Assembly (NCBI GenBank): GCA_026418415.1
Contig: JAOABK010000003.1
Location: 65,685-103,946 of the forward strand
Origin: Pseudomonadota bacterium
GTDB lineage: Bacteria; CALINM01
Direction: 5' to 3'
DNA: 38,262 nt
The notes below the pieces were generated by a model. That model made no database searches and was not told the origin of the DNA. It worked only from the letters and a program-made list of their open reading frames with translations. Shown piece by piece: positions 32,645 through 33,898 of the stretch (position 1 is its first letter; every line of letters starts with the position of its first letter). A program made the translations under genes and the position numbers.

Positions 32645-33898
32645 TTACTCCTTTCTCTCTAAATCAAAAATATCATTTAAAGATGCTTTAAAAAAATCAT
32701 CTATACTCAAAATTTTTGTTTCCTCTCTTTTACAATTCTTAATAGTCAGTTTTATATTATCCTTAAAAACTAAAATATAATCAAACCTGTTTTTTAAATC
32801 TTTTTCCTTTGCTGATGAATTAAAAAATGTAACTTTAATATCTTTATTTCTCAAGAACTGAGCAACCTCTAATGCATTTTTTAAGTTAACATCATCAGCT
32901 ATTAATGCAACATTTATAGCCCTATATGGAGTAATACAATCTGAAAGAGCTATTATATCCAATGCAAATCCCGTTGCTGATTTATTATTTATTCCAAACT
33001 GTTTTAGAAGTTTATTGTATCTACCACCAGTAATAATTTCCCTCATGTTCCCCTGATTATCTTCTAAATATCCATCGAATACTATTCCCGAATGATATTC
33101 AAGCCCTCGAACTTCTCCTAAATCGATATAAATCTTTTTACCCATAATGGATTCAGTAAATTCGCACAATTCTATTAGTTGATTTATATTTTCCGCTATA
33201 TAAGATATCTGGTATTTCTTAATTATACTTTTTAGAAGTGTCTTATCACCACAAAGAAGTGGAAGTTCTATAATAAACTTTTTTACCAACCCATCCAGAT
33301 TTATTGAAGAGATAATCTTTTCAATCCTACTTATATCTCGATAAATAAAGGCTTGTTTTAATTCTGTATTTTTATATAAACCGGTTTTATTTAGCAATTT
33401 TTTTAAAATTTCATTGTCATTGAAAAAAATTTTAATCTCCCTATTTATGTTTAAATTTCTAATAATTTCATTTATCAGAAAAACTATCTCTAACTCAGCT
33501 TTTATGTCCTCAACGCCTATTAGCTCAATTCCTGCATGATGAATTTCCCTCGGCTTACCATAAAGACTATCGGGGTTTCTCAAAACAGGACCAAAGTAGC
33601 ATATTCTTACCGGTAAGTTTTCAAGCATATTGATATTTGAAGATATAATTCTAACTATCTGGGGAGTAAAATCAAACCTAAAACAGGCAGGTTTATTAGC
33701 ATAATGATCTATAAAATTAAAAATATGACCTTCCTCTTCCCCACTCACTATATAGGTTTTCAAAAACTCAACAGAGGAAGTAAGTACAGGTCTGTATCCA
33801 AAACTTAAAAAAGATTGGTAGAGTTTTTGCTGGACAAAATAAAAGACCTCCGCCGATTCAGGCAGGAGGTCTTTAAAACCCTCTGGTATTTTAAACAT
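32645..33898 (-). CDS. hisZ: ATP phosphoribosyltransferase regulatory subunit (HisZ), class II synthetase-like
   Basis: 417 residues. It resembles the catalytic core of histidyl-tRNA synthetase but has HisZ features: [16 protein letters not shown] at the start, [27 protein letters not shown] in motif 2, and [14 protein letters not shown] in place of the histidine-binding RGLDYY-GTVFE. HisZ forms an octamer with short-form HisG to start histidine synthesis. After the core (about residue 325) there is a small alpha/beta segment ([23 protein letters not shown], then [23 protein letters not shown]) that resembles a reduced anticodon-binding domain. A true HisRS is less likely. A strong hairpin lies inside codons 9-19. 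No hisG is in the window. Confidence 0.87.
33842..33874 (-). other. Strong terminator-like hairpin within the start of hisZ
   Basis: A perfect 10-bp inverted repeat (AAAGACCTCC and GGAGGTCTTT) extends by three inner pairs (GCC/GGC) past a one-base bulge to a 6-nt loop. In the sense (minus) direction the right arm is followed by TATTTTG, giving TCTTTTATTTTG, which looks like an intrinsic terminator 25-57 nt downstream of the hisZ start. It may cause partial termination or affect translation, or be chance within codons for [11 protein letters not shown]. Confidence 0.5.

Follow-up and report, generated by a model that had tools for sequence, protein, structure and literature searches.

A conserved hairpin with a U-rich tail in the first codons of hisZ, a putative operon-internal terminator

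In the bacterium examined here a strong hairpin followed by a U-rich stretch lies within the first codons of hisZ, directly after the end of serA. This raises the question of whether the structure is under selection or is a chance product of the codons and, if it is selected, what it does at the border between two genes of one operon. The window is the whole stretch of DNA that was analyzed, 38,262 nucleotides in length. A preliminary description of it had proposed that the hairpin sets the ratio of serA to the downstream transcripts and had named the chance product as the alternative. Both proposals are examined below with sequence data from the window and from two related species.

The serA-hisZ junction and the hairpin

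The phylum was sampled with three species: the window's own (G000), a second of the same genus (G001), and a third of the same family (G002). The genes of the cluster are encoded on the minus strand of the window. hisZ (32645..33898, minus) encodes the ATP phosphoribosyltransferase regulatory subunit, with TIGR00443 as the best match at a score under the curated cut-off. Upstream of it is serA (33900..35492, minus), encoding phosphoglycerate dehydrogenase, for which the listed open reading frame begins with a TTG at 35552 and the family match begins at approximately 35480. In all three species serA is preceded by an aminotransferase gene (35503..36642, minus; PLP-dependent aminotransferase families are the best matches) and hisZ is followed by purA (31353..32639, minus). 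The serA stop codon, one nucleotide, and the hisZ ATG, which begins at 33898, read TGA-A-ATG (33896..33902, minus) in the window and TAG-A-ATG in both relatives, and the junction is 1 nt in all three species.

The minus-strand order in the window is aminotransferase-serA-hisZ-purA-trpE, with further trp genes, read by eye, coming next. These belong to a long series of close or overlapping genes, aminotransferase-serA-hisZ-purA-trp, at approximately 24900-36642 (minus). By eye, the gene order of G001 is apparently the same, and in G002 the aminotransferase-serA-hisZ-purA genes alone are seen together, as the same-strand open reading frames listed after purA have no trp-like appearance. Because trp genes lie downstream in G000 and G001 and are not apparent in G002, control by the hairpin would not be specific to tryptophan. 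The co-directional aminotransferase-serA-hisZ-purA order is kept in all three species and places the hairpin inside the operon, with co-transcription assumed from the spacing.

Two forms of HisG are encoded in G000, a short form of 206 aa that lacks the C-terminal domain (L059 1351-1971, C139) and a long form of 291 aa with HisG_C (L062 1351-2226, C71). G001 and G002 have two HisG matches each, one in a short and one in a long open frame. The short HisG is the form that needs HisZ, and to our knowledge the presence of short and long HisG together in one genome is unusual.

The hairpin spans 33842..33874 (minus), which corresponds to hisZ +25 to +57 and codons 9-19. It consists of 13 pairs (10 pairs, a bulged T, and 3 pairs) closed by a 6-nt loop and followed by a U-rich tail, exactly as first described. 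On the sense (minus) strand, 33874-33842 reads AAAGACCTCC-T-GCC-TGAATC-GGC-GGAGGTCTTT and continues into the tail TATTTTGTC. The fold and the comparison of the three species place the bulged base at 33864 (minus; T, replaced by C in G002). The U-tract (33834..33844, minus; sense TTTTATTTTGT) contains the codons for F-Y-F-V, its first three T are also paired in the stem, and the tail is interrupted. Codons 9-22 of hisZ are AAA GAC CTC CTG CCT GAA TCG GCG GAG GTC TTT TAT TTT GTC.

Folding had been suggested as a check on the hairpin. A 71-nt stretch containing it, folded as the plus strand, gave -24.4 kcal/mol with a z of -4.73, and none of 200 dinucleotide shuffles folded as well. The sequence features of an intrinsic terminator (stem, loop, and U-tract) are all found, as the three species have a GC-rich stem of 11-13 pairs with a short loop (-18.0 to -22.4 kcal/mol) and TTTTATTTTGT directly 3' of the stem. 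The minimum-energy fold of G001 has 14 pairs. A terminator consensus scan saw the hisZ site as a 5-pair stem only, and its sites in the 8-kb region were in no clear excess (6 found, 4.8 expected). At the gathering score no Rfam family matched the hairpin; the sole match in the window was a tRNA.

Selection on the structure

A synonymous null was used in which the protein was kept and the sense strand was recoded 60,000 times per species with codon frequencies taken from sampled genes. The recodings that folded as well as the native sequence numbered 1 in G000, 0 in G001, and 14 in G002 (z of -6.1, -7.1, and -4.2), and these three tests are not independent because the stem of G000 and G001 is shared by descent. 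The same comparison was extended to 954 windows: the starts of 159 complete genes with a length of 450 nt or more, and 795 windows placed at random inside these genes. The three hisZ starts scored lowest of all (z of -6.84 in G001, -6.27 in G000, and -4.05 in G002), and no other window reached -4. The codons of the G000 stem are rare within their families (CTC 6%, CTG 4%, TCG 5%, GCG 8%, GTC 8%, and GAC 16%) in a genome whose third positions are 24% G+C.

Next in the z ranking, at -3.92, is the start of an engB-like GTPase gene (16821-17384, minus). A strong hairpin covers the first codons of this gene (GTGTCTTTATAAT..GTATAAAGATAC). It has no U-tract and neither G001 nor G002 has a counterpart of it, and it serves as a contrast to that of hisZ.

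Additionally, 200,433 bases of the three genomes were scanned for hairpins followed by a T-tract, with gene borders from simple ORF calls. By energy, the hisZ hairpins are 1st (G001), 3rd (G000), and 5th (G002) of the 240 merged candidates, in agreement with the earlier remark that the hairpin is among the strongest. Ranks 2 and 4 are a single intergenic hairpin read in both directions.

The hairpin lies at the same hisZ codons in all three species, and its core pattern occurs once per genome, each time in hisZ. This is the case in proteins that have diverged considerably, as HisZ of G001 and G002 is 65% and 41-43% identical to that of G000 (93% and 80% for SerA). Loss of the stem in relatives keeping the protein had been named as the outcome that would speak against a function; the stem is present in all three. 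The inner stem and the U-tract are constant, and the loop and the bulge differ. In G001 the stem is identical and the loop is altered. In G002 there are 11 pairs, both outermost A-U pairs being lost, with a GGAAAA loop and a C bulge. The third base of codon 15 is always the stem-pairing G, and the residue encoded is S, E, and K across the three species.

One pair changes on both sides. Its 5' base, the C at 33865 (minus; hisZ +34, position 1 of codon 12), and its 3' base, the G at 33851 (minus; hisZ +48, position 3 of codon 16), are U and A in G002. The change from C-G to U-A is silent in codon 16 (GCG to GCA) and replaces Leu with Ser in codon 12. By itself this covariation is not significant (one pair in three sequences, reached by 160 of 500 shuffles). 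Codon agreement at same-residue positions with G000 is 0.41-0.61 over four cluster genes and, in hisZ past codon 22, 0.59 for G001 and 0.51 for G002. Within codons 9-22 it is 11 of 12 for G001 and 8 of 11 for G002 (the G002 excess is weak by itself), and the codon differences there are confined to the loop, the compensated pair, and positions past the tail. A search of genome contigs for more species returned three loci, one of them distant, and a search of viral contigs returned none.

A set of 27 homologues from other phyla, in which HisZ and HisS are mixed, was also compared. Part of the stem encodes a family motif, P-x-G-x-x-D-x-L-P, and GC-richer homologues fold strongly in the matching window (L030 -27.3, L007 -19.7, and L009 -18.3 kcal/mol), as would be expected if the hairpin simply followed from the encoding of a conserved motif. 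However, these three gain little over their own recodings (z of -1.58, -1.97, and -0.98). With the tail ignored, the lowest z of the 27 over the matching 54 nt is -2.62, as opposed to -4.3, -5.9, and -7.5 for the hisZ trio; the homologue values are rough, since codon usage was drawn from single genes. One hairpin was listed per homologue, the best of those having a T-rich tail and lying within 150 nt on either side, and at the matching place such hairpins were weak in the 27, the best being -6.8 in L028. In L009 (G039) a hairpin of -17.4 kcal/mol, likewise followed by a T-rich tail, was observed upstream of the conserved HisZ motif, at approximately the start of a hisZ-like gene. Within what was searched, the selected element seems to have arisen within this phylum. 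The synonymous null, the ranking of the 954 windows, and the homologue comparison reject the chance product proposed earlier; the codon agreement across relatives and the engB hairpin, which neither relative matches, are also contrary to it. Selection on the structure of the hisZ hairpin is well supported.

The U-tract and the residues that it encodes

The sense U-tract TTTTATTTTGT is identical in all three species. TTT and TAT make up 80-84% and 76-81% of their codon families; because these are the default codons here, the case for the U-tract is made by the residues and not by the codons. All three species have EVFYF at HisZ positions 17-21. In the 27 homologues the same columns are variable and rich in K, R, E, and Q, and the F, Y, and F at 19-21 are found in 1, 1, and 3 of them, respectively. 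Of the 176 other columns that are at least equally variable, 40 are invariant in the three species. It is unlikely that five consecutive invariant columns of this variable type arose by chance; a rough estimate is a probability of ~0.0006 if the columns are independent and the place was named beforehand. There are five invariant runs of at least five residues, and AEVFYFV alone has a high family entropy (mean of 2.83, as opposed to 1.15-1.50).

On the antisense side the tails differ among the three species (TTTAAAA, TTTGAAC, and TAAAAAA). Since conservation of the U-tract is one-sided and the residues that it encodes are atypical of the family, an RNA of the sense strand with a functional U-tract is indicated. 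An antisense terminator was considered, as the G000 and G001 hairpins rank 6 and 7 in that direction, and was rejected for want of a conserved tail on that strand. Among the intergenic hairpins of these genomes, several have tails similar to the sense one, e.g. TTATTTTTAAAA and TCTATTTTTAAA, and others have poorer tails. A strong two-way terminator-like hairpin built like that of hisZ was observed between called genes of G002 (C33:1325-1359, L046).

Termination, rival explanations, and known systems

The reading that we favor, with some confidence, is that codons 9-22 of hisZ contain an operon-internal intrinsic terminator that leaves more serA transcript than hisZ-purA transcript. RNA polymerase would copy serA, cross the 1-nt junction, and synthesize the U-tract approximately 65 nt into hisZ while the GC-rich hairpin folds. 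A fraction of the polymerases would release and the remainder would read through, resulting in more serA mRNA than hisZ-purA mRNA (and trp mRNA in G000 and G001). Ribosomes finishing serA would have to restart at hisZ, leaving the hairpin stretch bare. The terminator would lie inside hisZ because the 1-nt gap has no room for it and because the restarting ribosomes leave this stretch bare. Of the earlier proposal that the hairpin sets the ratio of serA to downstream transcripts, the structural part holds, with stem and U-tract conserved, and the ratio is the best-supported reading, in which termination is deduced from the sequence. A further step is possible but tentative: the terminator may be so important that the protein was rewritten around it. 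The stem and U-tract would then fix HisZ residues 16-22 (AEVFYFV) in what is a variable, often charged helix in the family, making a stop-or-go switch in the start region of a compact operon, where ribosomes restart after serA.

Operon-internal intrinsic terminators have been reported in the ABC importer operons of Ruminiclostridium, where they set expression ratios and have longer GC-rich stems and a lower U content than canonical terminators (PMC9045158). The hisZ hairpin is like these in its long GC-rich stem, in its modest and partly paired U-tract, and in separating an upstream gene from the downstream members of its operon. It differs in that the Ruminiclostridium terminators are reported as intergenic, and in that the hisZ element is known from its sequence alone.

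The main rival, which we consider unlikely, is that the hairpin protects a 3' end. An endonuclease would cut in hisZ, the stem would block 3'-5' exonucleases, and serA mRNA would outlive hisZ-purA mRNA with no termination. Protective structures of this kind have been described in differentially decaying operons of E. coli, 17 of 26 being inside the coding sequence of the downstream gene at a mean of 107 +/- 56 nt, with wobble positions that are more conserved (PMC5927463). The position, strength, and conservation of the hisZ hairpin suit this class, as it is also a stable conserved hairpin near the start of a downstream ORF with constrained synonymous sites. However, the E. coli hairpins act in decay and are reported to have no U-tract after them, whereas the hisZ U-tract is identical in all three species and encodes residues that are off the family pattern.

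A regulated form of the terminator reading, which we regard as improbable, is a translation-gated attenuator: a ribosome reinitiating at hisZ would cover the hairpin, and a failure of coupling would turn hisZ-purA(-trp) off. A ribosome initiating at the hisZ start would reach approximately +15 and leave the stem free, and about five codons further on it would cover the stem. Active translation of hisZ could prevent termination altogether. The 1-nt junction in all three species is in favor of such gating. In translation-lag studies, a ribosome stalled ahead of an intrinsic terminator increased termination in a pyrL reporter, and the longer rsxC transcript was 1.8-fold lower without EF-P (PMC5021804). 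In the same report, however, the pyrL terminator lowered expression by ~18-fold even without the stall site and narY had no effect in vivo. In hisZ there is no run of codons for a single amino acid ahead of the stem, and no competing structure is common to the three single-sequence folds. RNAalifold on the three sequences proposed some further pairs, among them A-U rich ones between the U-tract and codons 2-4; the single-sequence folds, which differ between species, do not share these pairs, and an attenuator that works by simple ribosome masking would need none. The coding strands of the window and of the G000, G001, and G002 stretches are 55.3-56.2% purine, as compared to 54% in B. subtilis, where polymerase outruns the ribosomes in runaway transcription (PMC13323073). 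This leans weakly and indirectly towards RNA polymerase outrunning ribosomes here and a terminator that would then act without translational gating, and a high purine content may also arise for other reasons. All three species have Rho, which together with such a purine content is what has been reported for bacteria with runaway transcription.

The location of a terminator hairpin inside translated sequence is shared with rsxC, narY, and the pyrL reporter, and the rsxC signal terminated in vitro only with NusA (PMC5021804). In that study narY and rsxC were chosen by terminator prediction downstream of polyproline motifs, whereas the hisZ site is at a gene start and is found in two genera. E. 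coli also has premature 3' ends in 5' UTRs and ORFs, some of them with intrinsic terminator scores (PMC7815308); the in-ORF location is alike, and the E. coli ends are mapped RNAs, as opposed to the sequence evidence for hisZ.

Still less probable is a role of the hairpin in recognition by a protein or small RNA, or in adjusting hisZ translation (by autoregulation, ribosome pausing, or masking of the start site). The hairpin is near the start codon and its stem has an SD-like GGAGG and rare codons. Against this, the loop, a usual recognition site, differs in sequence, and the predicted pairing of the ribosome binding site and AUG shifts with the species and the stretch folded (0.13 to 0.84 for the AUG). 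A convincing second copy is also lacking, the next match in the three genomes having an E of 0.13.

A DNA palindrome, either an operator or another protein-binding site, is very improbable. The inverted repeat and the symmetry of the sole stem change agree with it; however, the dyad is broken by a bulge that has been kept, the full site occurs once per genome, and the U-tract is conserved on one side only. GACCTC..GAGGTC is rare elsewhere (two more places in G000, one in G001, and none in G002; the reversed control occurs once per strand per genome). A dispersed repeat or operator family was also rejected, as the strict pattern occurs once per genome and a looser one at 3, 2, and 1 places in G000, G001, and G002 with hisZ included, and a search with RNA model R1 returned nothing better than E 0.13 beyond the three hisZ sites. 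A chance product of the codons for the conserved motif comes last, with a probability that we consider negligible.

Among the matches listed in the open-access literature, judged by title and the start of the abstract, there is no report of an element at the hisZ start and none on the serA/hisZ junction. Intergenic operon-internal terminators are already documented, and what appears to be new is a putative one sited inside the start of a coding sequence. In this group, known here from genome assemblies alone, the hairpin suggests that in compact operons without a gap a terminator signal can be relocated to the opening codons of the next gene. The signal would then be kept there while the surrounding synonymous sites scramble, at the expense of codon choice and, apparently, of the protein sequence. 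The locus lends itself to direct tests of how gene ratios are set in operons that lack intergenic space, and of whether intrinsic terminators work inside translated sequence.
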